A DNA stretch of 64,000 nucleotides, taken from assembly GCF_010993745.1 (NCBI RefSeq), contig NZ_WOTN01000002.1:2046001-2110000 (forward strand), in the 5' to 3' direction. Below the pieces are notes generated by a model, which did not search any database, was not told the DNA's origin, and was given only the letters and a program-made list of their open reading frames with translations. This document shows, piece after piece, positions 27,570 to 57,240 of the stretch; positions within the stretch are counted from its first letter, which is position 1; each line of letters opens with the position of its first letter. The stretch comes from Fodinicola acaciae (GTDB taxonomy: Bacteria > Actinomycetota > Actinomycetes > Mycobacteriales > HKI-0501). A program made the position numbers and the translations under genes.

Positions 27570-28085
27570 GCGTAATACTTGTTTAACAAGATATCAAAAC
27601 GGACATCTGTTGCAGGTTAGCGGCCACAACAGCATCACCAGCCTCAGTAGTCCCACCTGTCACAGCCTCTAGTGATCGCGGCGCCGTGAAAGCCTCGTTT
27701 CTTGCATCCAGCGCTAGTAACTCGACATCCACACCATCCGCCAACTTCGCAATCCAGACATTTAGCGCTCCACATGCCTTCGTATCCCACATACTGGACC
27801 CTCACGCCACAGACCGGGACGTCATCGCACCTCCGGCGCCCTAGCCACAAACCGGACCACACCACAAACAAACCGCACTCGCGGCACCCAACCCAACCAG
27901 CAGCGAAACCCCGCGCGCCCCTCCCTTGAGGTCGCCCGCCGCGAAGGCGCTACCACCCCCCAAAACGCAACATTCATGGAAACCCCCCAAACCCAACAAT
28001 CATCGAACCCCCGCCAAACGGAACAATCATCGAACCCTCAACCCCGCCAAACGCAACAACCAGAAACCCACCCCCCTCGAGCGCG
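27570..28085. repeat. Composite intergenic repeat, locus R2
   Basis: In left-to-right order this copy has the palindromic core (CTTGTTTAACAAG at 27578-27590, reverse orientation), then the block with overlapping short frames (about 27640-27815). The conserved GC-rich block containing CCTCCCTTGAGGTCGCCC follows at about 27890-27945, then the tandem repeat arm to 28085. It is one half of the palindromic element seen in full at R3. The arm ends 29 bp from the stop of the beta-glucosidase gene. A 69-codon frame on the minus strand (27583-27792) is conserved in sequence with R3 but is listed only as an observation. Confidence 0.75.
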
Positions 28086-28113
28086 CGTACGAAGTCGCTC
28101 TCTCGCGAGCTCC

Positions 28114-29508
28114 TTACCCCTCGTTGGAATCCCCGCGGCGAGTGACGAGCTTCTTGTACCAGTAGTAGCTGGACTTCGGAATGCGTTGCTGCGTCTGGTA
28201 GTCCACATAGACCAAACCGAAGCGCTTGGTGTAGCCGTAACCCCATTCGAAGTTGTCCATCAACGACCACGCGATGTAGCCGCGTACGTCGACGTCTTCG
28301 TCGATCGCCTGCCGTACGGCGCGCAGATGGCTGTCGAAATAGGCGATCCGCTCCGGGTCGTCGACCTTGCCGTCGACCACGGTGTCGACGTACGCGCAGC
28401 CGTTTTCGGTGATATAGACCGGGGGCAGCTGCGGATAGGAGTCGCGCAACCAGACCAGCAGCCGGCGCAGGCCGTCGGCCTCGACCGGCCATCCCATGGC
28501 CGTACGGCCGAGCGTCGCCGGCGGGTTGTCCACGACACCGATGTCAGTGGCGACGCGGAAAGTCACATCGCCGTCGACGGTGGGCGCGTTTTTCGCGTAC
28601 GTCGGCGCGTAGTTGTTCAGGCCGAGGAAGTCCAGCGGCTGGTGCACGATGTCCAGGTCGCCGGCCTTGCGGAAGGAGAAGTCGCTGATCGGCGACCACA
28701 GCTCGGCCTCGCCGGACGGCCACCGGCCGGCCAGGATCGGATCGGAGAAGACCCGGTTCTGCAACAGATCCGAGCGTTGCGCGGCGGCCACGTCGGCCGG
28801 ATCGTCGGTCGCCGGTGTCACGTGCGCCATGTTCAGCGTGATGCCAAACTTCTCGTCGCCGTACTGTTGCGCCCGCATCGCCTTGACCGCCAGGCCATGG
28901 CCGAGCAGCAGGTGGTGGGCGGCAGCGAGAGCGCCGTGGCCTTCGGTCGCGCCGGGCGCGTGCCGGCCCTCGGAATAGCCGATGAACGCGGAACAAAACG
29001 GCTCGTTGAGCGTCGTCCACATGGGGACGCGGTCGGCCAGCGCACTGTGCACGATCGCCGCGTATTCGGCAAAGCGTTCGGCGGTGTCGCGTACGCGCCA
29101 GCCGCCGGCGTCTTCCAGCGCCTGGGGGAGATCCCAGTGATACAGCGTGAGAAACGGGGTGATGCCGGCGTCGCCGAGCTCGTCGACCAACCGCTGGTAG
29201 AAGTCCAGTCCCTCGACGTTGGCCGGGCCCTTGCCGTCTGGCTGGATGCGCGGCCAGGCAACGGAAAACCGGTAGGCGGCGACACCGAGGTCGGTCATCA
29301 GGCCGATGTCGTCGCGATAGCGGTGGAAGTGGTCGCAGGCCACGTCGCCGGTGTCGCCGTGCGCGGTCCTGCCTGGCGTGTGCGAGAAGGTGTCCCAGAT
29401 CGACGGTCCGCGGCCGCTCTCGCCGACGGCGCCTTCTATCTGGTACGCCGCCGTCGACGTACCCCACACGAACCCTTCCGGAAACGCCGGAAAGTCCACA
29501 GTAGACAA
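28114..29508 (-). CDS. GH1 beta-glucosidase
   Basis: The enzyme (about 464 residues) hydrolyses beta-glucosides such as cellobiose in the cytosol. The N-terminal family signature FVWGTSTAAYQIEG is present. The acid/base Glu is in TLNEPF (about residue 169), the nucleophile Glu is in YITENG (about 370), and WSLMDNFEWGYGY is near the C-terminus. The TTG at 29508 is preferred because AAGGGG lies six bases upstream. A GTG at 29523 that shares a base with the upstream stop is the alternative. It is the last gene of the sugar ABC operon, so the imported sugar is probably a beta-glucoside. Confidence 0.93.
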   Translation of the reverse strand: MSTVDFPAFPEGFVWGTSTAAYQIEGAVGESGRGPSIWDTFSHTPGRTAHGDTGDVACDHFHRYRDDIGLMTDLGVAAYRFSVAWPRIQPDGKGPANVEGLDFYQRLVDELGDAGITPFLTLYHWDLPQALEDAGGWRVRDTAERFAEYAAIVHSALADRVPMWTTLNEPFCSAFIGYSEGRHAPGATEGHGALAAAHHLLLGHGLAVKAMRAQQYGDEKFGITLNMAHVTPATDDPADVAAAQRSDLLQNRVFSDPILAGRWPSGEAELWSPISDFSFRKAGDLDIVHQPLDFLGLNNYAPTYAKNAPTVDGDVTFRVATDIGVVDNPPATLGRTAMGWPVEADGLRRLLVWLRDSYPQLPPVYITENGCAYVDTVVDGKVDDPERIAYFDSHLRAVRQAIDEDVDVRGYIAWSLMDNFEWGYGYTKRFGLVYVDYQTQQRIPKSSYYWYKKLVTRRGDSNEG

Positions 29509-29522
29509 CCAATTCCCCTTCA

Positions 29523-30362
29523 CTATTTCACCGCACCAGCGGTCAGGCCTTGGACCAGGTAACGCTGCATCAGCAGGAATCCGACCACCACCGGGATGCT
29601 GACGACGATCGACGCGGCCATCACCTGATTCCAGTAGACGCCGACGTAGTTGGAATACTCGGCGAGGCCGACCGCCAGCGTACGCGAGCTGTCGTCGACC
29701 AGCACCGACGCGAAAAGCGACTCGCTCCACGACGTCATGAAGGAATAGATGAGCACCGCGACGATGCCGGGTTTCGCCGCTGGCACGATGATCGACAGCA
29801 ACGCGCGCACCGGGCTGGCCCCGTCGACCAGCGCCGCCTCGTCCAGGCCACGCGGGATCGAGTTGAAATAGCCGACGAGCATCCAGATGGAGAACGGCAG
29901 TGTGAACGTCAGGTAGGTGATGATCAGGCCGGACAGGTTGCCGACCAGCTTGATGCCGGTGACCTGGCCGATGTTGACATAGATCAGATAGAGCGGCAGC
30001 AGGAACAGGATGCCGGGGAACATCTGGGTGGACAGCACGGTCATCCGGAACAGTTCGCGGCCGCGGAAGGAATAGCGGCTGATCGCGTACGCGGCGAAAA
30101 CTGCCAGCGTCACCGACGCGATGCTGGAGATGCTGGCGACCAGCACGCTGTTGATGAAATAGCGGGCCAGCGGCACCGTCGACCAGATGTCCACGAACGG
30201 CCGGAAAGTGATCGTGGTGGGGATCCACTTGAAGTCGTTCTGTACGTCCCCAAGCGGTTTGATCGACGTCGAGATCATCACGTACAGCGGGACCAGCGTG
30301 AAGATCGTCAGGGCGGCCAGGCCGACCGCGCGTACGATCTTGAAGGACAGCGACTCACGCAT
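29523..30362 (-). CDS. Sugar ABC transporter permease (MalG type)
   Basis: The protein (279 residues) has six predicted membrane segments. The EAA loop, reading LDEAALVDGASPVRALLSII, contacts the ATPase. It pairs with the upstream MalF-type permease, whose end it overlaps by eight bases, to form the channel of a CUT1 importer. No ATPase is encoded in the operon, so a shared MsiK-like ATPase elsewhere is expected. The substrate is inferred to be a beta-glucoside from the adjacent GH1 gene. Confidence 0.92.
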   Translation of the reverse strand: MRESLSFKIVRAVGLAALTIFTLVPLYVMISTSIKPLGDVQNDFKWIPTTITFRPFVDIWSTVPLARYFINSVLVASISSIASVTLAVFAAYAISRYSFRGRELFRMTVLSTQMFPGILFLLPLYLIYVNIGQVTGIKLVGNLSGLIITYLTFTLPFSIWMLVGYFNSIPRGLDEAALVDGASPVRALLSIIVPAAKPGIVAVLIYSFMTSWSESLFASVLVDDSSRTLAVGLAEYSNYVGVYWNQVMAASIVVSIPVVVGFLLMQRYLVQGLTAGAVK

Positions 30363-31350
30363 CGTGTGTCCTCCTCGAGGTCACGAACAGATATCCGACC
30401 GTGACCACCAGCAGGAACAGCAGCATCAGCACCGACATCGCCGAGCCGAGGCCGAAGTTCCAGGTGATGAACGACGACTGTCTGATGTGGATGGTCACCA
30501 GGTCGGCGCTGGCCGGTGGTGAGTCGGCGAACAACGTGTATGGCACGTTGAAGTCGTTGAACGTCCACAGGAACAGCACCAGGATCAGCACCTGGTCGAC
30601 CGGCTTGAGCATCGGCAGCGTCAGCCGGCGAAACTGCTGCCACATGCCGGCGCCGTCGACCGACGCGGCCTCGTAGATGTCGGTCGGGATCGACTGCATG
30701 CCGGCCATCAGGGTCAGCAGCGCGAACGGCCACAGCCGCCAGACCGCCACGATCGCGGTGCTGACGAACGCGTTGTTTCCGAGCAGCCAGAAGGTTTTGC
30801 CGTCGGACAGGTGCAGCGAGGACAGGACGTGGTTGACCATGCCGGTGTCCTGGCTCAGCATGAACTTCCAGACGATCACCGACGCGAAGACCGGAAGCGC
30901 GTACGGCACCAGGAAAATCGTCCGCAGGATCGCCCGGCCGCGAAAGCTGCGTTGCAGCAGCGTCGCGCCGAAGATGCCGAGCAGCCAGCTCAGCGACACC
31001 ACGACGACGCTGAACAGGATCGTGACGCCGACCGAACGCAGCAGGCCGGCGCCGATCGCGGAGTTGAAGTTGACCGAGAACGCGTAGTTGTCGAAGCCGG
31101 CGAACGGCGCCTGCAGCCAGTGGCGCAGATAAAACGCGTTGAGCTTGAGAAAACTGATCGCGACACCGGTCAGCATCGGGATCACGTGCACCAGCAGCTC
31201 GAAAAGCAGGGCCGGCGCGAGCAGCAGATACGGCAGTGCGCGGCTGCTCAGCGGACGGCGACGCCGCCGGACCTTTTCGGGTCCGGGCGGCGCCGCCTCA
31301 TCAGCTGGAGGCAGCCCTCCAGACTGCGCGGCCGTTGACAGGCTGGTCAT
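30355..31350 (-). CDS. Sugar ABC transporter permease (MalF type)
   Basis: This CUT1 permease of 331 residues has a Pro/Arg-rich cytosolic N-terminus and six predicted membrane segments. The EAA-type coupling loop is YEAASVDGAGMWQQFRRLTL. Its ATG shares one base with the stop of the binding protein gene and its end overlaps the next permease, so the three are translationally coupled. Together they import an oligosaccharide across the cytoplasmic membrane. Confidence 0.92.
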   Translation of the reverse strand: MTSLSTAAQSGGLPPADEAAPPGPEKVRRRRRPLSSRALPYLLLAPALLFELLVHVIPMLTGVAISFLKLNAFYLRHWLQAPFAGFDNYAFSVNFNSAIGAGLLRSVGVTILFSVVVVSLSWLLGIFGATLLQRSFRGRAILRTIFLVPYALPVFASVIVWKFMLSQDTGMVNHVLSSLHLSDGKTFWLLGNNAFVSTAIVAVWRLWPFALLTLMAGMQSIPTDIYEAASVDGAGMWQQFRRLTLPMLKPVDQVLILVLFLWTFNDFNVPYTLFADSPPASADLVTIHIRQSSFITWNFGLGSAMSVLMLLFLLVVTVGYLFVTSRRTHDA

Positions 31351-32660
31351 CAGCCGCCGCTCGTCAACTTCTGCTGCGCCGCGGTCAGTGCGGCCTTCAC
31401 GTCGGCCTCACTGGCGATCTTTCCGGTCGCCTGTTGAGCAACCAGGTCTTTCAGCGCGGCACCGACCGTGGTCTCGAACTGGCTTTCGTTGACGACCATC
31501 GGCATCGTCTTGGACGAATTCCGCAGTACGTCCACGAAAACCTTCTTCGTCGGCGTCTGGAAGGCGGGGTCGGAGGTGGCCGCGCCGACCACCGGAAGCG
31601 AGCCGAACTGCTTGTTCAGGTCGACCTGCACGGCCGGACTGGTCATGTAGTTGATGAACTTCAGCGCGGCCTCGGTGTTCTTCTCCTTGAACGCCGAGAT
31701 GTTGATGCCGGCGACGAAGCTGGTGATCTTGCGGCCGCCGGGCGGCAGCGGGTTCTCGATCGGCAGCGGTACGACGCCGTAGTCACTTTCCTTCATGCCA
31801 CCGGCGGCGATCGAGGCCGTGGTGCCGGTCTGCTGCATGATCATCGCGGCCTTGCCACTGGTGAAGTCGGCGACAGCGTCCTGACCCTGGCCGTGCTCCG
31901 CGGAGCTCGGGATGGAGATTTTGTCGGCGCCGAGCCAGTCCAGGTAACGCTTCACGCCTTTTACATTCTGCGGGGTGGCGAAGGTGGCCTTGCCGGACGC
32001 GTCGAAATAGTCGCTGCCGTACTGCTGGCCGAGGATGTACGCGAAGTGCACGTTTTCGGTGTAGCTGGCGCCGGCGAAGGACACGCCGTACTCGCCCTTG
32101 GCCGGGTTGGTGAGTTTCTTGGCGTCCGCCACGAACTCGGTCCAGCTGGTCGGCGGGTTGGCGATGCCGGCGTCGGCGAACTTCTTTTTGTTGTAGAACA
32201 AGCCGTACGACAGGCCGTACAACGGCACCGAGGTCGGCGCCTTGCCGGCCGCTCCGGTGGAGCTGAGGCTGGTGGCCAGGAACTTCTCCTTGCCGCCGAC
32301 CTTCTTGAAGGTGGCGCTGTCGAAGTCGACGAACGCGCCGGTCGCCTGCAGCGACGCCGACCAGGTGTTGCCGATGTTGACCACGTCCGGTCCGTCGCCG
32401 GAGGTGGTGGCGGTGGTGATCCGGTCGAGCAGGTGATCCCAGGCGATCACCTCGAGGTTGACCTTGATGCCGGTCTGCTTGGTGAACGCCGCCAGCCGCG
32501 GAGTCAGGATTTCCTTGTCCTTTTGCAGGCTGGGGGCCTGGTTGCTGGCCCAGTAGGTGATCGTGTTGGCGTCCGAACCGCTGCCGCCGGACGAGCAGGC
32601 CGCCAGGCCGCTCGCCGCTAGCAGGGCCGCCGAGAGGAACGCGAGGGCTTTCTTGCGCAC
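31350..32660 (-). CDS. Sugar ABC transporter substrate-binding lipoprotein
   Basis: This extracellular solute-binding protein of 436 residues (family 1) has a lipobox LAAC near residue 22. A Gly/Ser-rich linker and the two-lobed binding fold follow. Visible family segments include TYWASNQAP, GPDVVNIGNTW, and AAMIMQQTGT. It captures sugar outside the membrane and delivers it to the permeases encoded immediately downstream. A LacI-type dyad lies about 83 bp before its start. Beta-glucoside specificity is inferred from the GH1 gene. Confidence 0.92.
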   Translation of the reverse strand: MRKKALAFLSAALLAASGLAACSSGGSGSDANTITYWASNQAPSLQKDKEILTPRLAAFTKQTGIKVNLEVIAWDHLLDRITTATTSGDGPDVVNIGNTWSASLQATGAFVDFDSATFKKVGGKEKFLATSLSSTGAAGKAPTSVPLYGLSYGLFYNKKKFADAGIANPPTSWTEFVADAKKLTNPAKGEYGVSFAGASYTENVHFAYILGQQYGSDYFDASGKATFATPQNVKGVKRYLDWLGADKISIPSSAEHGQGQDAVADFTSGKAAMIMQQTGTTASIAAGGMKESDYGVVPLPIENPLPPGGRKITSFVAGINISAFKEKNTEAALKFINYMTSPAVQVDLNKQFGSLPVVGAATSDPAFQTPTKKVFVDVLRNSSKTMPMVVNESQFETTVGAALKDLVAQQATGKIASEADVKAALTAAQQKLTSGG

Positions 32661-32740
32661 GGTCGACTCCTTCGGTGCCGGGCCTTGGGGGAGGTGGCCC
32701 GGTGGAAGTTTGCATGGCGAGCTGTCAGCCAGCCGGCATC

Positions 32741-32756
32741 AATTAACCGGTTCAGC
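32741..32756. promoter_or_regulatory. Candidate LacI-family operator upstream of the ABC operon
   Basis: AATTAACCGGTTCAGC contains the palindrome AACCGGTT with a central CG, typical of LacI-family operators. The core TTAACCGSTT is shared with the site upstream of the lacI-type gene at 33920. Its position, 80-90 bp before the binding protein gene, suits repression of the operon. Confidence 0.5.
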
Positions 32757-32871
32757 TCGCGGGTCATGTTAGCTGAGTCACGGCCTTCGTGGGAACCGTT
32801 CGGTGGACTAATTTTATTGTGCGGATGATGAGGAAATCGCCGAAAACTACGCGGTTTGTCGGGTGTTCTCG

Positions 32872-33885
32872 TTACGCAGAAGGATCGGTGCTTCTACGCA
32901 CGGTGAGTCGCGGTGGTTCCAGCCAGCGGTCAGCGGCCGTCCCGTGCTCGATCCGGTCGATCAGCAGCGCGGCGGCCTCGCTCGCCTCGGCGGTGATGTC
33001 GTGTGTGAACGCGGTGACGGCCGGATGGACCAGCTCGCACAGCGGCGAGTCGTCCCACGCCAGCACGGCAAGATCGGTCGGCACACGTACGCCTTCGTTG
33101 GTCAGCGTCGCGACCGAGGCGACCGCCATGATGTCGTTGTCGTACACGATCGCGGTCGGCGGCGCGGGGTTGGCGAGCAGCGCCTTGGTCGCGCGTACAC
33201 CTTCGGCCGCGGTGTAGTCGGTCTCCACCTGCGGCTGCTCGGTCCCAAGGATCTTCTTTGTGGCGTCGGCAAAATATCGCTGGCGGCGGACGACGTGCTC
33301 CAGTGTGTGCGGACCCGAGATGCGCGCGATCCGCTTGTGCCCAAGATCGGCAAGGTGGCCGACCGCGCGGAACATGGCATCCTGGTAGTTGACGCGCGTG
33401 CAGGAAATCCCGGCGTACGCCCGCTGGGCGCCGATGATCACCGCCGGCGCTCCGGCCTTGCGTATCCACCGCGGCCGCGGGTCGTCCATCCGCATGTCGA
33501 ACAGCAACATGCCATCCACCCGCCGGCCGCCCCACCAGCGCCGATAGAGCTCCAGCTCGCGAGCCGGGTCGGAGACGACCGTCAGCAGCAACGCCATGCC
33601 CCGCTCGGCCAGGGTCTTCTCGACGCCGGCCATCATGCGCATAAAATACGGTTCGGTGGCCACCAACTCCGGCTGCCGCACCGCGATCAGCCCGATCGCC
33701 TCGGCCCGATCGCTGGACAACGCACGCGCCGCGCTGCTCGGGATCCACCCCATATCCTCGGCGATGCCCAGAATCCGCGCCCGCGTCTCCACCGACACCC
33801 CGGGCCGACCATTCAGCGCGTACGACACCGCACCTTTGGACACCCCGGCAGCACGCGCGATATCCAGGATCGTCGGCCGCTTCAT
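32872..33885 (-). CDS. LacI-family transcriptional regulator
   Basis: The 337-residue repressor has an N-terminal helix-turn-helix (ILDIARAAGVSKGAVSYALN) followed by hinge residues SSAARALSSDR. The periplasmic-binding-protein-like effector domain includes IARISGPHTLEHVVRRQRYF. It is encoded upstream of the beta-glucoside ABC/GH1 operon on the same strand and is its probable repressor. A related dyad lies 35 bp before its own start, which suggests autoregulation. A GAGGG sequence precedes the ATG. Confidence 0.9.
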   Translation of the reverse strand: MKRPTILDIARAAGVSKGAVSYALNGRPGVSVETRARILGIAEDMGWIPSSAARALSSDRAEAIGLIAVRQPELVATEPYFMRMMAGVEKTLAERGMALLLTVVSDPARELELYRRWWGGRRVDGMLLFDMRMDDPRPRWIRKAGAPAVIIGAQRAYAGISCTRVNYQDAMFRAVGHLADLGHKRIARISGPHTLEHVVRRQRYFADATKKILGTEQPQVETDYTAAEGVRATKALLANPAPPTAIVYDNDIMAVASVATLTNEGVRVPTDLAVLAWDDSPLCELVHPAVTAFTHDITAEASEAAALLIDRIEHGTAADRWLEPPRLTVRRSTDPSA

Positions 33886-33919
33886 CGCCACCCTCTTCAG
33901 CAGTTCTGTCGAACGGTAA

Positions 33920-33933
33920 CTTAACCGCTTAAG
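33920..33933. promoter_or_regulatory. Candidate LacI-family operator upstream of lacI
   Basis: CTTAACCGCTTAAG has perfect CTTAA/TTAAG arms and shares TTAACCG with the site at 32743. It lies 35 bp from the ATG of the LacI-family gene and just before the composite repeat R3 begins. Confidence 0.5.
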
Positions 33934-33954
33934 TCCGGTTCGGCAACGATGGTG

Positions 33955-35057
33955 CGGTGGTGGTTTGAGTGTAGGTGGCTCGAGGGGGGGTTGGGTTTTG
34001 GTTGTTGCGTTTTTTGGGGGCGGGTTTCTGGTTGTTGGGGGTGGGAGTGGTTGGGTCTTCTTGATTGTTGCGTTGGGTGGATGGTTGGGTTTTCCTGAGT
34101 GTCGCGTTTGGGGGTGGTGCGCCTGCGCGGCGGGCGCTCCTGCGCGGAGGGCGACCTCAAGGGGAGGGGCGCGCGGGGTTTGGCTGTTGGTTGGGTTGGG
34201 TGCGGCGTGTGCGGTTGGTCTGTGGGTGGGTCCGGTTTGTCCGTTCTCGCCGACGAGGGAGAACGGACAAACCGGACCGGGAGTGTGGCTGGGGCACCGG
34301 AGGCCTGATGGCGTCCCGGTAGATGGCAAGAAGGTCCACTACGTGGGATGCGGAAGCATGTGGAGCGCTAAATGTTCGGATTGTGAGGGTCGCGGATGGC
34401 GTGAATGTCGAGTTACTTGCGTTGGATGCAAGAAACAAGGCTTTCATGCTGCCGCGATCACCGGAGGCTGTGACGGGTGTGACTACTGAGGCTAGTAATG
34501 CTGTTGTGACTGCTCACCTGCGATAAATGTCCGTTTTGATGTCTTGCTAAACAAGTGTTACGCAGTCAGTCGCACCAGCACGATCGTTTGGCGTCCATCC
34601 CGACGGGTTGCTTCCCACACGTGACCTGGCTTGCTCGTTCTCCCCGTCGGCGGGCGCAGCCAACCACATTGTCGGAGGGGCCGCCGCCCTCCCAAACGCA
34701 ACCACCCTCCCAAGCTCGGCGGCCCCTCCGACAATGTGGTTCCCTTCAGGGCGCCGACGGGGAGAACGAGCAAGCCCAGAGAACCCAGCCCCGCCCGCAA
34801 ACCGCCGCCCGCACCCTCAATGCACACGATTGGCGGCCACGCGCCCCCTCCCTTGAGGTCGCCCTCCGCGCAGGAGCGCCCGCCGCGCAGGCGAAAAACC
34901 CAACCACCCACCCACGCAACAAACATGGAGACCCAACCACCCCCCCGACGCAACAAACAAGAGACGCAACCACCCATCCAACGCACCAAACATGAAACCC
35001 AACCACCCCCTGACGCACCAAACATGAAAACCAACCACCTTCCCCACGCAACACAAC
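33955..35057. repeat. Composite palindromic intergenic element, locus R3 (most complete copy)
   Basis: The element reads: inverted tandem-repeat arm (33958-34115), inverted GC-rich block (34117-34185), perfect hairpin with 20-bp arms (34229-34248 / 34259-34278) and the overlapping-frame block (34340-34500). The palindromic core follows (CTTGCTAAACAAG at 34543-34555), then a GCGTCCATCCCGACGGGTTG segment and a very long hairpin (34630-34774, arms of 23 and 25 bp). The direct GC-rich block (34850-34895) and tandem-repeat arm (34896-35056) close it. Outer parts therefore form inverted repeats over 1.1 kb. It fills the space between lacI and the second ABC operon. No certain protein is encoded. 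Confidence 0.8.
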
Positions 35058-35094
35058 AAAAAGCCCGGCCACGCACACCACGCGACCGGGCCTT
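35058..35094 (-). terminator. Rho-independent terminator of the second ABC operon
   Basis: Read on the minus strand, GGCCCGG and CCGGGC pair around a ~17-base loop and are followed by a run of five T. It lies 11 bp after the permease stop and directly beside the repeat arm of R3. Confidence 0.7.
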
Positions 35095-35104
35095 ACACCC
35101 CCTC

Positions 35105-40056: not shown

Positions 40057-40540
40057 ATGTCCGTTTTGTATATCATGATCAACATGTATTACGCAGAATA
40101 ATTGCCTCTCCTGCATTGTGCGTCACATGAGTCACACCAGTAACAGCTCGGCGGTGGGTGTGGTGTTCGCATGGACCCCTTACGTGCGTCAGACGCACGC
40201 AGGGAGGCCCTGCCACCACAAGACAAACGGACAAGACGGGCGTTTAGTGGTACAGCAAGATCATTTAGCGTCCGCTGCGGGTTGCTTCCAATGTGGCCAA
40301 ACCCAGCCGACCGCAAACGCGCAGCCGCACCCTGGCGCAAGCAGACGCCATCGAGGCGTCCCCTCCCTTGAGGTCGCCCGCCGCGCAGGCGAAAACCAAC
40401 CACCCATCTACGCAACAAACATGAGGACCCAGCCACCCACCCAACGCAACATAAGGAAGACGCAACCATCCCTCAACGCGACATACATAAAGACCCAACC
40501 ACCCACAGAAACCCCAACCACCACAACAAAGGGGGATGCA
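40057..40540. repeat. Composite intergenic repeat, locus R4
   Basis: The copy begins with the core segment ATGTCCGTTTTG at 40057, where the central palindrome has diverged (ATGATCAACATG). The overlapping-frame block follows in reverse orientation (about 40100-40265) and includes TGCGTCAGACGCA. A segment resembling GCGTCC...GGGTTGCTTCC comes next, then the CCTCCCTTGAGGTCGCCC block (about 40360) and the tandem repeat arm (to about 40540). It is the right half of the full palindrome. The remaining ~90 bp to the convergent glucosidase gene show nothing recognisable. Confidence 0.7.
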
Positions 40541-40633
40541 ACCACCTCCCGATCGCGACACGACGCCCCGCAAGAAATCGGTTGGATTCAGGCTAGACGC
40601 ACGGAAAGGGGCGTTCCGAAAACTCGGCGACGG

Positions 40634-46159: not shown

Positions 46160-46565
46160 GGCGATTGAGCCGCCTCACCCGCATCGACAGTCACACCAGT
46201 GACACCTTGGCAGCCGCTCAATGTTCGCAAGGCCCCCATGCGTGCGTCAGACGCACGCATGGAGGCCCTGCTACCAAAACACAAACCGGCAAGACGGACA
46301 TGTAGCGCTACAGGAAGATCGTTTGGCGTCCATACCGACGGGTTGCTTCCCATACGTGACCTGGCTTGCTCGTTCTCCCCGTCGGCGGGCGCAGCCAACC
46401 ACATTTTCGGGGTAAGCCGCCGCCCAACAAGCGCAACCACCCACCCACGCAACAACCAGAAAACGCAACCACTCACCCACCGCAACAACCAGAAAACGCC
46501 GCCACTCCACCCACCGCCCCAACCACCCCCCGCCACAAACTCGCACCACCTCTCACCGCACCACC
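46160..46565. repeat. Composite intergenic repeat, locus R5
   Basis: This copy lacks the palindromic core. It starts with the reversed overlapping-frame block, which contains a perfect hairpin (CATGCGTGCGT / ACGCACGCATG, 46237-46247 and 46251-46261, loop CAG). GCGTCCATACCGACGGGTTG follows at about 46325, then the left arm of the long hairpin (CTTGCTCGTTCTCCCC..., about 46358-46380) without its partner arm, and finally the tandem repeat arm (46425-46565). It fills the gap between the HNH gene and the LuxR gene, whose promoter must lie within or beside it. Confidence 0.7.
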
Positions 46566-46613
46566 TCTCACCGCACTCATCACCACCTCCCAACCGCCGC
46601 TACGCTCCGCAGA

Positions 46614-50522: not shown

Positions 50523-51443
50523 TCAGGCGAGTACGGACGACACGGCGGCCGGAGCGTCATGCGGCGTCGACAAAACGGCATATCGGCCACCGCCGGCGGC
50601 GGCCAAAGCACGGCAGGTCTGTTCACCGACCGCCTCCTCACCAGAAGGCGGTGTGAGAGCGAGGACATGCAGGCGTACGCCCAAAGACCGCGCCGTGCCG
50701 GCGATCGGCACCGGATCGGCGCCTTCGGTGCGTACGCCGTCGGTCAGCAGCAAAACCTCGCGGCGCGCGGCTCGCGCGATGCGCGCTTGGTCAAAGGCCG
50801 CCCGCAGAGCCAACGCGAGGTCGGTCGTGCCGCCACCACGTAAATCCGCCAGCTTCTCGACCAGCGACGCGACCGACGCGGCTGGCGCCATCGGCTGCAA
50901 AACCACGGCACGGGACCAAAAAGCGAGCACCGCAAGCTCGGCCGCACCGACCCGGTGGCACAGCGCGCCGGCGGTCAGCACGGCGGTCGCCAGCCGCTCG
51001 CCGGCGACCGAGCCGGACGAGTCGACGACCAGCAGATAGGCCGACGAACTCCGTTTCCAGCCACGGAAAACCAGGTCGTCCAGCTGCGGCCGGTGGATGC
51101 CGGTGAGCCGGTTGAGCGTCACGTCCAGGTCGAGGTCGGCGCCGGCGTACGGGTCGGTCAGCAGTCCGAGCTGGGGCCGGCCGAGTCCACGCGGTGCCGC
51201 CACGCCGGCCGGACGCAGCGCCAGGCGAGTGGCCAGAAGCCGTGCCTTGGCACGTAAATCTCGGTCGTGGGCCCGAGTCAGGTCGGCCAGCAAAGCCAAA
51301 CCCTCGGCCGGATCCAGGCCCGACAGCGCGTTTTCGTCCAGCACACCGGCTTCCGGCGACACCGTCGACAGGTCGGCATGGCGATGCGCCAGCTCCGACC
51401 GGCCGACCGTACGCGATGCCTGTGACCGCAACAGCGACGACAC
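50523..51443 (-). CDS. VWA domain protein, MoxR partner
   Basis: The protein (about 306 residues) contains a von Willebrand factor A domain with an intact metal-ion-dependent adhesion site: VVDSSGS (DxSxS), a Thr in GGGTTDLALAL, and the Asp in LLTDGVRTEG. Upstream helices (LADLTRAHDRDLRAKARLLA) are typical of MoxR-associated partners. With the MoxR ATPase it probably forms a chaperone that activates a metalloenzyme or membrane complex. The GTG at 51443 is the first in-frame start after the MoxR stop but lacks a good binding site, so the start is uncertain. Confidence 0.85.
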   Translation of the reverse strand: MSSLLRSQASRTVGRSELAHRHADLSTVSPEAGVLDENALSGLDPAEGLALLADLTRAHDRDLRAKARLLATRLALRPAGVAAPRGLGRPQLGLLTDPYAGADLDLDVTLNRLTGIHRPQLDDLVFRGWKRSSSAYLLVVDSSGSVAGERLATAVLTAGALCHRVGAAELAVLAFWSRAVVLQPMAPAASVASLVEKLADLRGGGTTDLALALRAAFDQARIARAARREVLLLTDGVRTEGADPVPIAGTARSLGVRLHVLALTPPSGEEAVGEQTCRALAAAGGGRYAVLSTPHDAPAAVSSVLA

Positions 51444-51496
51444 CGCGCCCGGATCGCTGATGACCGGCCCGGCGTCCGGCGGCGGCTCGCCGGGCC

Positions 51497-52369
51497 TCAG
51501 GCTTTTCCCGAGCTGCCTTCCCAGATCTCGGTGACCACCTCTTCTGCCGTCCGTCCGTTGCCGTCGACCAGCGTGATCCGGCCGGTCAGCGCCGCCAACG
51601 CGGCATCCAGCGAGAAATCGTCGGTGTCGCGGATCGCGGAAAGCTCGCGCGCGACCAGCACGGTGTCGATCGCGCCGCGTACGGACGCCGGCACGCGGAT
51701 CTCGGGATGCGTACGCGTCGCGCGCACGGCTCGGACCGCCTGCCGCGCCAGCGGCGAGTCGGTGCCCGTCTCGGCGCGTACGATCGCCAGCTCCGCATCC
51801 TCGTCCTGGTAGCCCATCGCCACCCGGCACGAGCGGTCATAGAGTGCCGGCGTGATCCGGGTCGTGCCGATCGCGTCGTACGGGTTCATCGCGGCGATCA
51901 GCCGGAAGGTCGGCTCGGCCGGCACCGTGCCGACCCGCGGCAGGTGGATCTGCCGCTCGGACAGCACGCCGAGCAGCAGGTTGAGCGTCTCCTCCGGGAT
52001 CCGGTTGAGCTCTTCCACGTACAACAGCGCGCCGCCGGTCATCGCCCGCAGCAGAGGCCCAGGCACGAAGTTTCCTTCGTGGTAGTCCTCGGTGAGCACG
52101 CGCGACGGGTCGTGGTGGCCGGCCAGCCGCGCTGGCGTCAGCTCGGCGTTGCCTTCCACCAGCACGAGCGGCAGCCCGGCGCCGGCCGCCAGCGCGGTCA
52201 GCAGCGTCGTCTTGCCGGTCCCCGGCGGGCCTTCCAGCAGGATGTTGCGGCCGGCGCCGAGCGCGGCCGCGACCACCTCGGCCTCGCGGCGCCTGGCGAC
52301 AAGGCGGTCGCCGGCCGCCGCGATCATCGCGGCGACCGGCAACACACCGTCAGAAGACGATGACGCCAC
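51497..52369 (-). CDS. MoxR-family AAA ATPase
   Basis: The 290-residue AAA+ protein has Walker A LEGPPGTGKTTLL (about residues 44-56), Walker B LLYVEELNRI, and sensor 1 RLIAAMNP. MoxR proteins act with VWA partners, one of which is encoded immediately downstream. The GTG start at 52369 lies inside the end of the alcohol dehydrogenase gene (20-bp overlap), which suggests that the dehydrogenase and chaperone genes are one transcript. A shorter start at the ATG for residue 15 is possible. Confidence 0.9.
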   Translation of the reverse strand: MASSSSDGVLPVAAMIAAAGDRLVARRREAEVVAAALGAGRNILLEGPPGTGKTTLLTALAAGAGLPLVLVEGNAELTPARLAGHHDPSRVLTEDYHEGNFVPGPLLRAMTGGALLYVEELNRIPEETLNLLLGVLSERQIHLPRVGTVPAEPTFRLIAAMNPYDAIGTTRITPALYDRSCRVAMGYQDEDAELAIVRAETGTDSPLARQAVRAVRATRTHPEIRVPASVRGAIDTVLVARELSAIRDTDDFSLDAALAALTGRITLVDGNGRTAEEVVTEIWEGSSGKA

Positions 52370-53465
52370 GGATGTTCTTACCGTCGTGCATGTCCTTGTA
52401 ACCCTGGTTGATGTCGTCCAGCGTGTACGTGTTGGTGATCAGCTCATCGAGCTTCAACTTGCCGGCCTTGTAGAGCGACAGCATCAGCAAGATGTCCTTC
52501 TTGGGGTTGGACGCGCCGAACAGCGACCCCTGCAGCCGCTTCTGGAAGAGCGTCAGCTCGCCGATGCTGATCGGCAGGCCGACGTCGGTGATGTTGCCGA
52601 GGCCGGTGACCACGCACGTTCCGGCCTTGCGGATCGCCGCGAACGCGCCGGCGACGTGCTCGCCCTTGGTGACGCCGACGGTGACGATCGCCGAGTCGGC
52701 GCCCTGGCCGTTGGTCAGCGACCGCGCGATCTCGGCGCCCTCCTCGATGGTCTCGGCCGCGTGCGTGGCACCGAGTTCCTGTGCCTTCTCCCGTTTGAAG
52801 GCGACCGGGTCGACCGCGATGACGTTGGCCGCGCCGGCGTGCGCGGCACCCTGTACGGCGTTGATGCCGATGCCGCCGACGCCCATCACGATGACCGTGT
52901 CACCGGGATAGACCGCCGCCGAGTTGACCGCCGACCCCCAGCCCGTACCGACACCGCAGCCGGTGAGTACGGCCTTGGACAGGTCGAGGTCCTCGTCCAC
53001 CTTCACCGCGTTGTCGACGGACACGACGGTGTGCTCGGCGAACGTACCGAGGCCGCACATCTGGCCGACCGGCGCGCCGTCCATCGTCGTACGGAAGCTG
53101 GTCGGGTCGTCCGGGCGTCCGCCGGAGAGCAGGCCGGCGCCGAGGTCGCAGAGGTTCTGCATGCCGGCGGCACACCAGCGGCAGCGGCCGCAGCTGGGCA
53201 GGAACGAGAAGACGACCTTGTCGCCTTCGCTGAAGCCGGGTGTGTTCGGGCCGACACCGGCGACCACGCCGGCTCCCTCGTGGCCGCCGATCATCGGATA
53301 GACGCCGGCCGGGATGTCACCGGTGGCGATGTGGTCGTCGCTGTGGCACAGGCCGGCGGCCGACATCTTGATCAGCAGCTCGTTCTGCCGCGGCTCGCCG
53401 AGGTCGACCTCACCCACCTCGAACTGACCAGGAGCCTTGCGGACGAACGCGGCACGGGTCTTCAT
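52350..53465 (-). CDS. NDMA-type zinc-dependent alcohol dehydrogenase
   Basis: The 371-residue medium-chain dehydrogenase has catalytic zinc ligands in GLCHSDDH and the GGHEGAGVV motif. The structural zinc Cys cluster reads CGRCRWCAAGMQNLC, and the nucleotide fold is VMGVGGIGINAVQGA. It fits the actinobacterial N,N-dimethyl-4-nitrosoaniline-dependent alcohol dehydrogenase group, which keeps its nicotinamide cofactor tightly bound and uses an alternative electron acceptor, often mycofactocin. No mycofactocin genes are in the window. GGAGG precedes the ATG. Mycothiol-linked formaldehyde oxidation is an alternative. Confidence 0.9.
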   Translation of the reverse strand: MKTRAAFVRKAPGQFEVGEVDLGEPRQNELLIKMSAAGLCHSDDHIATGDIPAGVYPMIGGHEGAGVVAGVGPNTPGFSEGDKVVFSFLPSCGRCRWCAAGMQNLCDLGAGLLSGGRPDDPTSFRTTMDGAPVGQMCGLGTFAEHTVVSVDNAVKVDEDLDLSKAVLTGCGVGTGWGSAVNSAAVYPGDTVIVMGVGGIGINAVQGAAHAGAANVIAVDPVAFKREKAQELGATHAAETIEEGAEIARSLTNGQGADSAIVTVGVTKGEHVAGAFAAIRKAGTCVVTGLGNITDVGLPISIGELTLFQKRLQGSLFGASNPKKDILLMLSLYKAGKLKLDELITNTYTLDDINQGYKDMHDGKNIRGVIVF

Positions 53466-53763
53466 TGCGGCCTCCGGTGTGAGCGTTGGTGATGTTCGCA
53501 GGCTATGGCCCCGGTGTGGTCCAGCACACCCCCAACCAACCCGCCAGTTGCCTGTCCGATCGGTCAGTGATCTGGATGTGAGGTCGGCGCGTACGGGCAA
53601 CCGGTGCGGTCGTTCGAGCGTCGAAGCAGGTAGGGAGTGAGACCGCAGGTGGATGGCCGGTACGTCGCAGTCATGACATGGCGGTCGGCGACTTCGCCGG
53701 GGTGTCAGCGGTGGCTACTCTGGTCAGGCATCGGAAGAAGACACCGGCGGAGCAAGGAGGCTC

Positions 53764-55434
53764 ATGTCCCAGGCGGCGGGTTCCGCGCCGGAAGCAGTGC
53801 TCGACCTGGTCTGCGGACCGGAGAGCGTGCTGCCGGAGTCCCGGTCGCGCTACCGGCTGATCTCGCATCTGGCCTCCGGCGGCCAGGCCGAGGTCTATCG
53901 CGCGGTACGGATGTCGGCCGGGGTCGCCTCCAGCCCGGTCACGGTCAAGGTGTTCCGGGCCAGCGAGGGCCGGCCGCTGATCGACCAGCTGCGGTCCTGG
54001 GACAAGGGCGACGCGGTGCTCGCCGACCTGAACGTGCGGGGCATCCCCGGCATCTGCCGGCGGATCGAGGGCTTCATGGCCGGCCATCCGCATCCGCCGG
54101 GGACGCTGCCGCCGCGCGGCATCGCCGGTGTGCCGGACGAGGTGCCGTACCAGGTGCTCGACTACCTGCCTGGCTGGGCCCTGCGCGACATGGTCAACGG
54201 CGCGTACCCGAAGGTCGAAGGCCGTCCGGTGTTGCGCAGCCTGGCCGACGTGCTGCTCGCCCTGCACCATCCGGTCGCGACCGCCAGTCCGGTGCTGCAC
54301 ATGGACCTGACGCCGGCCAACGTGGTCGTCCTGCCGGACGGCAGCCCGCGGCTGATCGACTTCACCGGTGCGCGTTACGACCGGCCTGACTACATCACCT
54401 CGGTCGCCTTCACCGCCAAGGCCGGTGGTCCGGAGGCGCTGACCGGCCGGGTCGGTCCGGCCTACGACGTGCACGGCTTCGGGGCTATCGCATACTTCCT
54501 GGTCACCGGACAGCTGCCGCGCGAGGTCGCGGAGAGCACCGTGGTGTCCGGACCGGAGATGCCGCGCGCGCGGTGGTCGATCCTGAAGCCGGCGGCCGCG
54601 CTGGACTCCGCGCCGAAGCTGCGCGAGCACCTGCTGCAGCCGCTGATGGACCAGCCGGGCGACCGGCCGCTGACCACCGACCTGCCGGAGTGGGTCGACC
54701 GGCTCGCCGAGCTGGCGGCCGCGTATCCGATCTCCGGTGGCCTGGCGACCTGGGCCGGTGGCCGGCGCTCCGTACGCGGCTCGGCGCGGGTCACCAGCGG
54801 TGCCGGAGCCGGCGCCGCCGCGGCGTCGTTCGTCGCGACCGTGCCGGCGATCGTCAAGCCGGCCGACAGCGCGGCCGCCGCGAAGCCGCCGACGGCGAAG
54901 GCGAGCGCGGCGGTGGCGCCGACGGTGCCTCGGGCGGAGCCGGTGAACGGCACGCGGGTCGACATCGCGCGGCCGCCGGAGACGCGCGGACAGGCGCGTG
55001 GTGCCTCGAAGGTGCCGGTGGCGCCTCAGCCGCCTCAGCAACCGCCGACCCTGGACGAGCCGGCCGCCCCGCCGCCGGAGTCGCGCCGGTCGTACGGTCC
55101 CAAGCGCGGCCGGCTGCTGTCCATCCTCGGCGGCGTGTTCCTCGGCGTCTGCTACATGATCTGGGCCGCGGTGACCGCGTTGAACACCGTCACCGGCGCG
55201 TCGCGCACGGACACGCAGACGCTCACCACCGAGCTCGGCGTGGCCGCCGTGCTGGCGCTGGTGGCCGCGATCGTGCCGTTCTGGATGTGCCGGCTGGTCG
55301 GCCGGCTGTTGCTCGGCTGGCGCCAGCGCCGCGGCGCGCTGCCGTCGCACCTGATCGGCACCGCGTTCTCGGTGCTGAGCGGCATCACCTTCCTGTCCGC
55401 GACGCCGGCCGTACACATTCCTTTCCTCAACTGA
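53764..55434 (+). CDS. Membrane-bound Ser/Thr protein kinase-like protein
   Basis: The 556-residue protein has an N-terminal kinase domain. The Gly-rich loop is LASGGQAEVYRAV, the ATP-anchoring Lys lies in VTVKVF, the catalytic loop is HMDLTPANVV (HxD-x4-N) and the metal motif is DFTG instead of DFG. After an Ala/Pro-rich linker (about 330-450) there are three hydrophobic segments (about 460-545). It is probably anchored in the membrane with the kinase inside. Catalysis is plausible but the DFG change makes it uncertain. AAGGAGG lies three bases before the ATG. The 298 bp upstream hold no other gene. Confidence 0.85.
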   Translation: MSQAAGSAPEAVLDLVCGPESVLPESRSRYRLISHLASGGQAEVYRAVRMSAGVASSPVTVKVFRASEGRPLIDQLRSWDKGDAVLADLNVRGIPGICRRIEGFMAGHPHPPGTLPPRGIAGVPDEVPYQVLDYLPGWALRDMVNGAYPKVEGRPVLRSLADVLLALHHPVATASPVLHMDLTPANVVVLPDGSPRLIDFTGARYDRPDYITSVAFTAKAGGPEALTGRVGPAYDVHGFGAIAYFLVTGQLPREVAESTVVSGPEMPRARWSILKPAAALDSAPKLREHLLQPLMDQPGDRPLTTDLPEWVDRLAELAAAYPISGGLATWAGGRRSVRGSARVTSGAGAGAAAASFVATVPAIVKPADSAAAAKPPTAKASAAVAPTVPRAEPVNGTRVDIARPPETRGQARGASKVPVAPQPPQQPPTLDEPAAPPPESRRSYGPKRGRLLSILGGVFLGVCYMIWAAVTALNTVTGASRTDTQTLTTELGVAAVLALVAAIVPFWMCRLVGRLLLGWRQRRGALPSHLIGTAFSVLSGITFLSATPAVHIPFLN

Positions 55435-55580
55435 GCCGGTTTTGGCGCGGTGTTGGGGAGGGGATGAAACTGCAAGCTCCGTACGTCACATCAGGCGCAT
55501 CCTGATCACGCGTACGCGGAGTGGGTCGGATACGGTGACCGTGCACGATTTGTTCGGACCCCAGAAGGTGTGACGAGCGC

Positions 55581-55871
55581 ATGACCCCACTTGAGATCGT
55601 CGGGATTTTCGTCGGCATCCCCGCCGCGGTCGTTCTGGTGATCGCCGCGCTGGTGTACGGCACGAGCGCGCGGCGCTCCACCCGCTATCGTCCCGGCCGG
55701 CCGTTCGACTTCGCTCCGGTGTGGTTCCTCGCCGCCGCACCCGACGCCGGCGCGGTCGGCGCTCCGCGGACCACCGCCGGCCAGCTCGAGGCAGCTGCGC
55801 AGGAGTCCGTACCGGCCGGCCAGAGCGAGCCGGCCGCCGAGTCCAAGGGTGGCGCAAGTGGCAGCTGGTGA
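55581..55871 (+). CDS. Small membrane protein, possibly aa3 oxidase subunit CtaJ-like
   Basis: The 96-residue protein has one N-terminal membrane segment (IVGIFVGIPAAVVLVIAALVYG), then an Arg-rich PGRPFDFAPVWFLAA motif and a polar Ala/Ser tail. This layout, together with a DUF5130 gene immediately downstream, resembles the small CtaJ accessory subunit described for the actinobacterial supercomplex oxidase. That identification comes from memory of the family, not a search. Its end lies 13 bp before the next start. Confidence 0.6.
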   Translation: MTPLEIVGIFVGIPAAVVLVIAALVYGTSARRSTRYRPGRPFDFAPVWFLAAAPDAGAVGAPRTTAGQLEAAAQESVPAGQSEPAAESKGGASGSW

Positions 55872-55884
55872 CGGAGGTGCAGTG

Positions 55885-56343
55885 GTGACCGAGGACAACC
55901 CGGTTCCCGTACAGGTGACCGAGTCCGGTGAGACCGTCACCCCACCGATCAACGAGTCCAAGGACATCTCCGACCCGGAGCCGGGGGAGAGCCCGTTCAA
56001 CTCGCGGCAACTCATCCGCATCGACGAGGCCCTGACCGCCGCCGACCGCGAGTCCGGCCTGACCTTCAGCGTCTACGTCGGTGCCTTGGCGGAGAACACG
56101 CGCGAAGACGCCTTCCGCCTGCACGACGAGCTGCCCGACCCAGCCAAGTCGGTCCTCATCGCCATCTCACCCGACCAGCAGAAGGTCGAAATCGTCACCG
56201 GCTCCGGCGCCGCCCTCCGTATTCCCGACCGGATCTGCGCACTGGCCGCCCTGTCGATGACCGCCGCCTTCGCCGGCGGAGACTTGACCGCCGGGATCGT
56301 GACCGGCTTGCGGATGTTGGCTGACCACACCAAAGGCAGCTAA
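55885..56343 (+). CDS. DUF5130 family protein (TPM-like)
   Basis: The 152-residue protein fits DUF5130/TPM-like proteins. LIRIDEALTAADRESGLTFS is followed by VYVGALAENTREDA and a C-terminal LAALSMTAAFAGGDLTAGIV. There is no signal peptide or hydrophobic anchor. The GTG at 55885 is chosen because GGAGG lies seven bases upstream. It follows the small membrane protein gene closely and is probably co-transcribed with it. A strong terminator lies 19 bp after its stop. Function is unknown. Confidence 0.8.
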   Translation: MTEDNPVPVQVTESGETVTPPINESKDISDPEPGESPFNSRQLIRIDEALTAADRESGLTFSVYVGALAENTREDAFRLHDELPDPAKSVLIAISPDQQKVEIVTGSGAALRIPDRICALAALSMTAAFAGGDLTAGIVTGLRMLADHTKGS

Positions 56344-56361
56344 GGGCCGAGGCTCTTTCCA

Positions 56362-56391
56362 CGCGGCGCCGGGTTCCTGGCGCCGCGTTTT
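56362..56391 (+). terminator. Rho-independent terminator after DUF5130 gene
   Basis: CGCGGCGCC (56362-56370) pairs with GGCGCCGCG (56379-56387) around an 8-base loop and is followed by TTTT. It closes the two-gene unit. Composite repeat R6 starts directly after it. Confidence 0.7.
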
Positions 56392-57240
56392 GGTGTGGGG
56401 TGGGGTTTCTGGTGGGGCGGTTGGGGTGGTTGGGTTTTCTGGTTGTTGCGTTGGGTGGGTGGTTGGGTTTTCTTGGTTGTTGCGTTTTGGGGGGTGGTTG
56501 GTTTTTCGCCTGCGCGGCGGGCGCTCCTGCGCGGAGGGCGACCTCAAGGGGAGGGGCGCGCGGGGTTTCGCTGTTGGTTGGGTTGGGTGCGGCGGGTGCG
56601 GTTGGTTTGTGGGTGGGTCCGGTTTGTCCGTTCTCCTCCGACGGGGGAGAACGGACAAACCGGACCAGGAGTGTGGCTGGGGCGCCGGAGCTGCGGTGGC
56701 GTCTCGGTGGGTGGCGTGAGGGTCCAGTATGTGGGACGCGACGGCGTGTGGAGCGCTAAATGTCCGGCTTGTAAGGGTCGTGGATGGCATGAGTGTCGAG
56801 TTACTTGCGCTGGACGCAAGAAACAAGGCTTTCACGCCGTCGCGATCCCCTGGAGGCTGTGGCGGGTGTGACTATTGAGGCTGATAATGCTGTTGTGGCT
56901 GCTGGGCTGCAACAGATGTCCGTTTTGATGTCTTGTTAAACAAGTATTACGCAGTCGAGCCGCCTCACCTGCATTATCAGCCACAGTAGCCACACCAGCA
57001 CCACTCCGGACGCTGTGATGGCGTCCATGCCGACGGGTTGCTTCCCATACGTGACCGAGCAAGCCCAGAAAACCCAGCCAGCCCGCCCGCAAACGCGCAG
57101 CCGCACCCCTATGCACACCGATTGGCGTTCCCGCGCCCCCTCCCATGAGGTCGCCCTCCGCGCAGGAGCGCTCGCCGCGCAGGCGAAAACCCAACCACCC
57201 ACCCAACGCAACAACAGAAAACGCACGATCTCACCACACA
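56392..57240. repeat. Composite palindromic intergenic element, locus R6
   Basis: This copy has the same order as R3: inverted tandem arm (56392-56505), inverted GC-rich block (56507-56560), a perfect 20-bp-arm hairpin (56616-56635 / 56647-56666), and the overlapping-frame block (56700-56880). The palindromic core (CTTGTTAAACAAG at 56932-56944) follows, then a shortened reversed block, GCGTCCATGCCGACGGGTTG (57019-), the direct GC-rich block (57130-57185) and a short tandem arm (to about 57240). The hairpin arms are identical to those of R3, while the loops differ. It lies between two convergent genes. Confidence 0.8.

Follow-up and report, generated by a model that had tools for sequence, protein, structure and literature searches.

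A Fodinicola family of nested palindromic intergenic repeats whose orientation follows replication

Six related loci in a 64,000-nucleotide stretch of the Fodinicola acaciae genome (the window) belong to one non-coding repeat family of F. acaciae GKU 173 (G000), with a copy number in Fodinicola of the order of a hundred or more. The orientation of the copies tracks replication, not transcription. We lean towards the explanation that these are Fodinicola-specific, non-autonomous, nested MITE/BIME-like elements, whose insertion, coupled to the replication fork, would be the work of a putative enzyme acting in trans.

Results

The loci R1 to R6 are all linked by shared direct and inverted repeats (for example D4, 213 nt at 85%; D6, 136 nt at 96%; I1, 289 nt at 83%), and the relatedness of R2 to R6 in the original prediction is thereby upheld. 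R3 and R6 are indeed nearly complete (0.9–1.1 kb) and R2, R4 and R5 are halves, as had been proposed. The locus at 1–318, taken at that stage for an isolated arm, actually belongs to a full copy, of which it forms the right arm; the body of that copy is nearly all to the left of the window. Element ends are the limits of merged BLAST matches and are accurate to a few tens of bases. The features are:

1–318, plus strand: R1, right tandem-repeat arm belonging to a full element with its body at C2:2045271-2046007
27561–28082, minus strand: R2, left half (arm, GC block, X, 'frame' block), stopping at the central motif op
33956–35066, plus strand: R3, nearly complete composite element
33960–34111, plus strand: R3 left tandem arm, G/T-rich strand
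34112–34176, plus strand: R3 left GC block; inverted copy at 34837-34901
34229–34278, plus strand: R3 hairpin hp1 (GGTCCGGTTTGTCCGTTCTC / GAGAACGGACAAACCGGACC); other copies lack it or have a longer one
34286–34500, plus strand: R3 'frame-bearing' block (extent as given by the probe), not a gene; contains an inner end motif at 34365
34527–34565, plus strand: R3 op (ATGTCCG ... CTTGCTAAACAAG ... TACGCAG), corresponding to the sharp end of right halves
34630–34774, plus strand: R3 core hairpin; between both species the loop is conserved and the stem shows compensation
34837–35066, plus strand: R3 right-hand side: inverted GC block and tandem arm of ~33-bp units
40057–40560, plus strand: R4, right half with a sharp start at op (ATGTCCGTTTTG) and a tandem arm at its end
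46160–46600, plus strand: R5, right half without op; inner MITE-like unit, partial core hairpin, arm
56371–57240, plus strand: R6, nearly complete, without core hairpin; between the terminator-like hairpins of convergent genes
60716–60761, no strand: F. acaciae empty site for a ~1.4 kb F. feengrottensis element (C39:4019-5444)

Complete copies read arm, GC block, X, hairpin, 'frame' block, centre, core hairpin, c2, inverted GC block and inverted arm, and in them the predicted fixed order with its reversed series is borne out. Module order and orientation are identical in the 28 aligned copies that have a GC block on each side. Complete copies span 0.4–0.9 kb from one GC block to the other and contain long nested stems; hp1 and the core hairpin vary between copies, being present or missing, often with one arm retained. 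Nested inside is a smaller unit whose two ends (left ATGTCCG..., right ...CGGACATTTAGCGCTACAG) are inverted relative to each other. Its inverted ends centre on AGCGCTAAATGTCCG, and it was read once without arms (L079). Of the two ends of a right half, one is sharp and the other fuzzy. Fourteen of the R4 type, picked by hand, start sharply at ATGTCCG or a variant, with a mean identity of 0.26–0.31 upstream of this end and of 0.53, a value inflated by the anchor, over the first 10 nt downstream. Inspection by eye revealed no target-site duplication in 14 half-element flanks, where the tandem arms blur the outer ends. The element is composite; its outer ends are tandem arms, without an ordinary terminal inverted repeat. 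As expected from the earlier reading, no transposase lies within the elements.

The idea that the 'frame-bearing' block is coding did not survive. Of 27 aligned copies, 12 contain internal stops and 6 are not in frame, and variability is lowest at third codon positions (0.107 vs 0.140 and 0.116); together these contradict coding and the block was rejected as a gene. The open frame in some copies resembles a CxxCxGxGW zinc motif. A known RNA family was also discarded, the elements having no match to Rfam 15 at the gathering score. R3 gives four sub-threshold matches, and the sole match in the window is a SAM-IV riboswitch outside the elements.

Single-strand folding gave z = -23.2 for R3 and -17.6 for R6, values that none of 20 shuffles reached for either element. 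In the core hairpin both sides have changed in 10 of 41 pairs, with 31 such cells compared to 12.3 in shuffles, in a count that leaves 8 of the 18 core hairpins unused. The fold is conserved between the species with compensatory stem changes: large palindromes have been kept folded across species divergence, the stems changing on both sides and the loop remaining nearly fixed.

The 23-mer of the central motif op, allowing up to 3 mismatches, matches 96 times genome-wide, and a degenerate 35-mer has 29 exact matches; the reversed controls gave 0 in both searches, which rules out chance. Copies bearing op have a mean spacing of one per ~92 kb across the genome, and the predicted recurrence every 5–11 kb thus describes a local cluster only; the origin contig is nearly empty, with 2 copies in 1.41 Mb vs 94 in 7.45 Mb elsewhere. 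The 28 aligned copies (373 pairs) show a mean divergence of 17% on the left and 11% on the right (closest pairs 6.5% and 2.4%). Since they are already diverged, no very recent movement is visible.

Searching the genome and its relatives, as had been suggested, returned copies genome-wide and, in the sister species F. feengrottensis (G001), a relative, but nothing convincing beyond Fodinicola. The sister element has the same plan and a largely different sequence (two loci fully read); the op 23-mer, at up to 3 mismatches, has 0 matches in this assembly, which is rated 74% complete. Across 61 genomes (our own and 60 relatives) five matched at E ≤ 0.001, the matches in G002, G020 and G028 spanning only 28–45 nt (E 6e-4 to 9e-4). 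Among the 61, only the own and sister genomes give convincing matches. The exact core 20-mer is found in 8 contigs of an 84,980-species collection that possibly omits the own genome. Seven of these are non-Fodinicola contigs, three of which show, no more than 220 nt away, a loosely matching inverted partner (4 of 15 positions mismatched); their likeness to the element extends over just 20–29 nt and they were dismissed as chance. A 38-mer scan of genome contigs, in the collection possibly lacking the own genome, gave 0 matches. No match to R3 was found in plasmids and phages, nor to the core 21-mer and op 20-mer in viral contigs, and of two scans of viral contigs with end motifs, one gave 10 single matches, which were passed to the IS search described below, and the other 0.

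Gene context was analysed for 61 loci, taken from the best search matches and one rich stretch and therefore not a random sample; fragments shorter than 120 nt or lacking an orientation signal, including R1 and R4, were dropped. The median distance is 48 nt to gene 3′ ends (n = 80) and 168 nt to gene 5′ ends (n = 36), in agreement with the prediction of intergenic loci whose arms end near gene 3′ ends. Convergent gaps hold 24 of 55 copies, compared to 67 of 395 in the background (p = 2e-5), and tandem-gene gaps hold 27 of 55. Terminator-like hairpins are located at the edges of R6 (56361-56388 and 57265-57300) and at the R3 edge (35060-35094); the numbers of such sites are not above those in shuffles (2 vs 1.2 and 2 vs 2.2).

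The comparison of insertions with empty sites, put forward with the original prediction, located empty sites in both directions. The sites of R3 and R6 are clean empty sites in F. feengrottensis (C101:4397-4431 and C101:22216-22346, respectively), and reciprocally the site of one F. feengrottensis insertion is empty in the F. acaciae window. Those of R4 and R5 are not clean empties because other repeats occupy them in F. feengrottensis. Close to the beginning of C39, what may be an element within the M1-peptidase gene of F. feengrottensis is likely an assembly join and was set aside. Sites are filled or empty between the species in both directions and the family therefore behaves like a mobile element. 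The notion of a single unit that inserts or amplifies is accordingly retained as far as one family with two-way empty sites is concerned, but the element is a nested mosaic and not one fixed unit.

Replichores were set from dnaA on C4, a dif-like site and the GC-skew sign change. The single dif-like site (C1:1302253, 1 mismatch; reversed control 0) coincides with the sign change of the GC skew and is similar to the dif of F. alni given in PMC3025954. Leaving out two op copies on C4, 72 of 94 point along replication (p = 2e-7); the fraction is 60 of 73 at 0–1 mismatch and 12 of 21 at 2–3 mismatches. Setting aside 42 of the 96 op sites, for which no flanks had been fetched, 38 of 44 complete copies lie along replication, as does one of three left halves, in which the bias is not seen. 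A count by hand of the best 40 R3-like matches gave 34. Between tandem genes transcribed against replication, the element tracks replication in 7 of 8 pairs; in divergent gaps 1 of 4 elements does so, and in convergent gaps 17 of 24 (p = 0.06). The dif region is not enriched (5 op copies, C1 0.75–1.75 Mb). That copies usually point along chromosome copying suggests spread during DNA replication; orientation could instead be kept by selection.

Genome-wide enzyme searches covered two families, Y1 and Y2. The Pfam model Y1_Tnp had no match in either F. acaciae or F. feengrottensis, whereas the control was detected in 5 of 14 genomes; REP/RAYT and IS200/IS605 systems are therefore not supported. 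A search for Y2 (IS91-type) transposases found none, but no control genome gave a match either. The fetched sequence (~1.66 of 8.86 Mb of the own genome, plus short loci) contained no IS with matching end motifs facing around an ORF.

Discussion

In the explanation we lean towards, new copies would enter the DNA near the replication fork with their strand orientation fixed, and orientation would arise from insertion itself, not from selection. The putative enzyme supplied in trans probably recognises either the fork or the single strand in its folded form. Copies would survive chiefly downstream of genes, where harm is least, and would decay as hairpin arms or an entire half are lost, such loss being the probable origin of the halves; they may also swap modules, and tandem arms may grow or shrink. 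If insertion is set by the fork, the ~100 copies would form a natural archive of DNA inserted strand-specifically in an actinomycete and, with no Y1 detectable by the Pfam model, would point to another mover enzyme. We think it rather unlikely that the element is a fork-coupled, strand-specific mobile DNA recognised by its folded single strand and conserved hairpin loop (ACGCAACCACCCACCCAAGCTC) and not through terminal repeats of the ordinary kind, with a sharp op end, an open tandem end and a mover outside HUH Y1.

There may be no single element, hot spots having stacked unrelated MITE-like units and tandem repeats in a look-alike order. The inner unit with its own inverted ends, read alone once (L079), and the variable presence of hairpin modules are consistent with this. 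The 28 aligned copies with a GC block on each side nevertheless share order and orientation, empty sites lack the whole element, and the sister repeats the overall plan (two loci fully read), making such stacking rather improbable in our view. The elements, with strong hairpins and compensatory changes, a median of 48 nt from gene 3′ ends and enriched in convergent gaps, also invite interpretation as functional bidirectional transcription terminators or 3′-UTR stabilisers kept at convergent gene ends. We consider this unlikely: the neighbouring genes own terminator-like hairpins at the R3 and R6 edges (in site numbers not above shuffles), orthologous gaps in the sister are without the element, 27 of 55 copies sit between tandem genes, and orientation tracks replication, not transcription.

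KOPS, AIMS and replication-termination sites are examples of chromosome-organising polar signals. A function of this kind, with orientation kept by selection, would fit the 72 of 94 copies along replication and the depletion near ori; it is quite unlikely, as copies are sparse around dif too (5 op, C1 0.75–1.75 Mb), presence and absence differ at syntenic sites between the sister species, and the op 23-mer is missing from the sister at up to 3 mismatches (assembly 74% complete). Very improbable, finally, are REPIN-like elements moved by a Y1 transposase of the RAYT or IS200/IS605 type. Although the copies are palindromic, intergenic, numerous and strand-biased like IS200/IS605 (as described in PMC5371812), Y1_Tnp is found in 0 of 2 genomes (control 5 of 14) and the units are far longer than REPs.

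Several known systems resemble the Fodinicola family in part. As in MITEs, there is a unit with inverted ends, here the inner one around AGCGCTAAATGTCCG, and the copies are non-coding and located in gene gaps; unlike MITEs, the Fodinicola element is composite, without an ordinary terminal inverted repeat or visible target duplication, and the fetched sequence holds no autonomous partner. BOX elements of Streptococcus pneumoniae have a modular make-up. They too are composite intergenic repeats, presumably moved in trans, but differ in sequence and host, and we know of no nested-palindrome plan with replication-oriented copies among them. BIMEs and REPINs of enterobacteria and Pseudomonas are, by the accounts in PMC3116915 and PMC2817692, likewise high-copy, intergenic, non-autonomous mosaics of palindromic modules. 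The REPs are 20–40 bp (PMC3733652), whereas the Fodinicola elements reach ~1.1 kb and have tandem arms; neither a Y1/RAYT gene (0 of 2 genomes) nor doublets of 20–40 bp palindromes, both traits of REPIN/RAYT systems, have a counterpart here. IS200/IS605 and TnsE-type Tn7 are alike in behaviour only, their insertion orientation tracking replication direction (PMC5371812). They are said in that source to prefer termination sites, whereas the dif region of F. acaciae is poor in copies, and IS200/IS605 differ further by their Y1 transposase, none being found in either Fodinicola genome. The repeat family itself is new; the broad kind is already known.

Copies and range

The central motif of the element, op (ATGTCCG...TACGCAG), was counted genome-wide as a 23-mer with at most three mismatches. 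There are 96 copies in F. acaciae GKU 173 against none for the reversed control; at the same threshold none was found in the sister species, F. feengrottensis HKI 0501. The fetched F. acaciae sequence (1.664 Mb, part of it chosen as element-rich) holds 48 element clusters. Genome searches scored the best 40 of 235 and the best 40 of 246 candidates, so that the overall count of copies is a minimum. Element matches were seen in five of 61 genomes. Three of these matches are weak (28–45 nt) and were set aside, leaving the two Fodinicola genomes among the 61. These genomes comprise 8.86 Mb in 4 contigs (F. acaciae) and 8.71 Mb in 107 contigs (F. feengrottensis) (PMC7232338); that paper's main text mentions neither repeats, transposition nor palindromes. 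No paper treating both Fodinicola and palindromes was found in the literature searched.

An op variant, CTTGTTAACCAAGTATTACCCGG, is common to seven copies and defines a subfamily, which also reaches the origin contig, C4.

Copies of the CTTGTTAACCAAGTATTACCCGG subfamily in F. acaciae
C1: 1440039, 1546815, 2707328
C2: 1595677
C3: 706262, 888613
C4: 1317843

The window, which covers C2:2046001-2110000 of the F. acaciae genome, contains three further features.

25193-25295: second palindromic repeat, about 100 bp, unrelated to the R1–R6 family; with ends TAGGGCCTGTCTCC...GGAGACAGGCCCTA and TA on either flank, it resembles an ordinary MITE; it occurs at 14 places within the fetched F. acaciae sequence (one on the origin contig), and 16 matching places are listed for the sister
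26732-27250: direct repeat of 180 bp (74%) that lies within a predicted coding sequence and may be a domain or gene duplication
2345-2460: SAM-IV riboswitch (118.6 bits)

Element architecture

In a complete copy the left half runs tandem arm, GC block, X, an optional nested hairpin (hp1), the 'frame' block and op; this is followed by b, an optional core hairpin, c2, the inverted GC block and the inverted arm. The arms are built of units of about 33 bp with a G/T-rich strand. The 28 copies having a GC block at both ends were aligned and span 418–933 nt, GC blocks counted in and arms out. Hairpin size varies among them in a nested, stepwise fashion, and some copies retain a single hairpin arm. 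As single-stranded DNA, the inner parts of the nearly complete elements R3 and R6 fold much better than their shuffled counterparts (z = −23.2 and −17.6, respectively). The 'frame' block was considered as a gene and rejected: 12 of 27 copies carry internal stops, 6 of 27 have lost the frame, and there is no third-position excess.

The op contexts listed number 68, at least one of them a duplicate. The 54 of 96 op copies with enough fetched flank to be typed (the other 42 sites are without it) comprise 44 full elements, 7 right halves and 3 left halves. For comparison of the sharp end, 14 right halves, R4 among them, were picked by eye. All begin at ATGTCCG or a variant; upstream of this start the mean identity is 0.26–0.31, the level of random sequence, and over the first 10 nt downstream it is 0.53, a value inflated by the anchor. 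The inner part of the right halves terminates in CGGACATTTAGCGCTACAG or a variant of it, which matches the left end in inverted orientation. One locus, L079, carries a unit with an ATGTCCG-type left end and a CGGACATTTAGCGCTACAG-type right end from which the arms are absent, and the same end motif also lies within the 'frame' block (R3, 34365; R6, 56753). Taken together, these observations point to an element that includes nested MITE-like units.

Conservation of the fold

A fuzzy pattern located 18 core hairpins, 13 in copies from F. acaciae and 5 in copies from F. feengrottensis. The hairpin base is common to copies of both species and the loop, ACGCAACCACCCACCCAAGCTC, nearly so; the upper stem diverges, with compensation. 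Covariation was counted in 10 of the 18 hairpins, which are related copies. Here 97.3% of cells pair and 31 are changed on both sides; shuffling gives 12.3 ± 2.6, with none of 500 shuffles reaching 31, and a sliding control gives 2–7. Ten pairs have both-side changes against 6.5 in shuffles (3 of 500 as high); further pair types in these 10 sequences are not above shuffles (16 vs 15.6; 290 of 500). The central hairpin of the sister element has Watson–Crick pairing in 303 of 330 cells, of which 13 are changed on both sides. These counts show maintenance of the palindromes across species. The pattern does not tell RNA from DNA, since template-switch correction of imperfect palindromes could yield the same both-side changes and the ten sequences are related copies.

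Insertion sites and gene context

R2–R6 were compared with the sister, where two of five sites are cleanly empty: R3 (around 1.17 kb in F. acaciae vs 34 bp) and R6 (around 0.98 kb vs 130 bp). A reciprocal site, directly behind a stop codon, has 45 bp in the window (60716-60761) vs around 1.4 kb in the sister. Other repeats occupy the sister's counterparts of R4 and R5, and R2 lacks synteny on its left side. We note that the sister's R5 site (contig C101, L143 15400-16230) holds a different tandem array and long hairpins (CATCAGAAAATCCCGCCCCGCC...); the stretch that includes the neighbouring LuxR-type regulator gene lacks a counterpart at that site.

Gene context was assigned with a simple home-made gene caller. 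The 55 loci with both neighbours called comprise 24 convergent, 27 tandem and 4 divergent gaps; among 395 background gaps 67 are convergent (Fisher p = 2e-5) and 68 divergent (p = 0.08). In the sister, 4 of 11 elements are convergent (one at a suspect assembly join) and 1 of 11 divergent. Terminator-like hairpins of neighbouring genes adjoin the computed ends of the elements, or overlap them a little, on both sides of R6 (56361-56388, 57265-57300) and on the right of R3 (35060-35094), as if the elements had landed right behind terminators.

Orientation relative to replication

Replichores were set from dnaA (on C4), the sole dif-like site (C1:1302253) and GC skew, from which contig order was also inferred. 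On C1, 26 of 27 samples ahead of the dif-like site have positive skew, and all 15 from the site onward have negative skew; the sign is positive in 13 of 16 samples on C2, negative in 10 of 12 on C3 and mixed on C4. With C4 left out, 72 of 94 op copies on C1–C3 point with the fork (p = 2e-7). For 0, 1, 2 and 3 mismatches the fork-oriented counts are 42/51, 18/22, 7/11 and 5/10; by kind they are 38/44 (complete), 6/7 (right halves) and 1/3 (left halves), and across all mapped loci of every kind 44/61. In tandem gaps 15 of 19 elements are fork-oriented where the genes are co-directional with the fork; for genes running against it the count is 7 of 8. Convergent gaps give 17/24 (p = 0.06) and divergent gaps 1/4. 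The origin contig has two op copies in 1.41 Mb, and the 1 Mb around dif (C1, 0.75–1.75 Mb) has five.

The placement, the empty sites in both directions and the strand bias are jointly consistent with insertion that is coupled to replication and carried out by an enzyme acting in trans. According to PMC5371812, fork-wise orientation has been described for IS200/IS605 and for Tn7 via TnsE, and is said to apply to several IS families. The Fodinicola element differs from IS200/IS605 in that a Y1 class transposase was not found in the F. acaciae or F. feengrottensis genome, and resembles both IS200/IS605 and TnsE-type Tn7 in being oriented with the fork.
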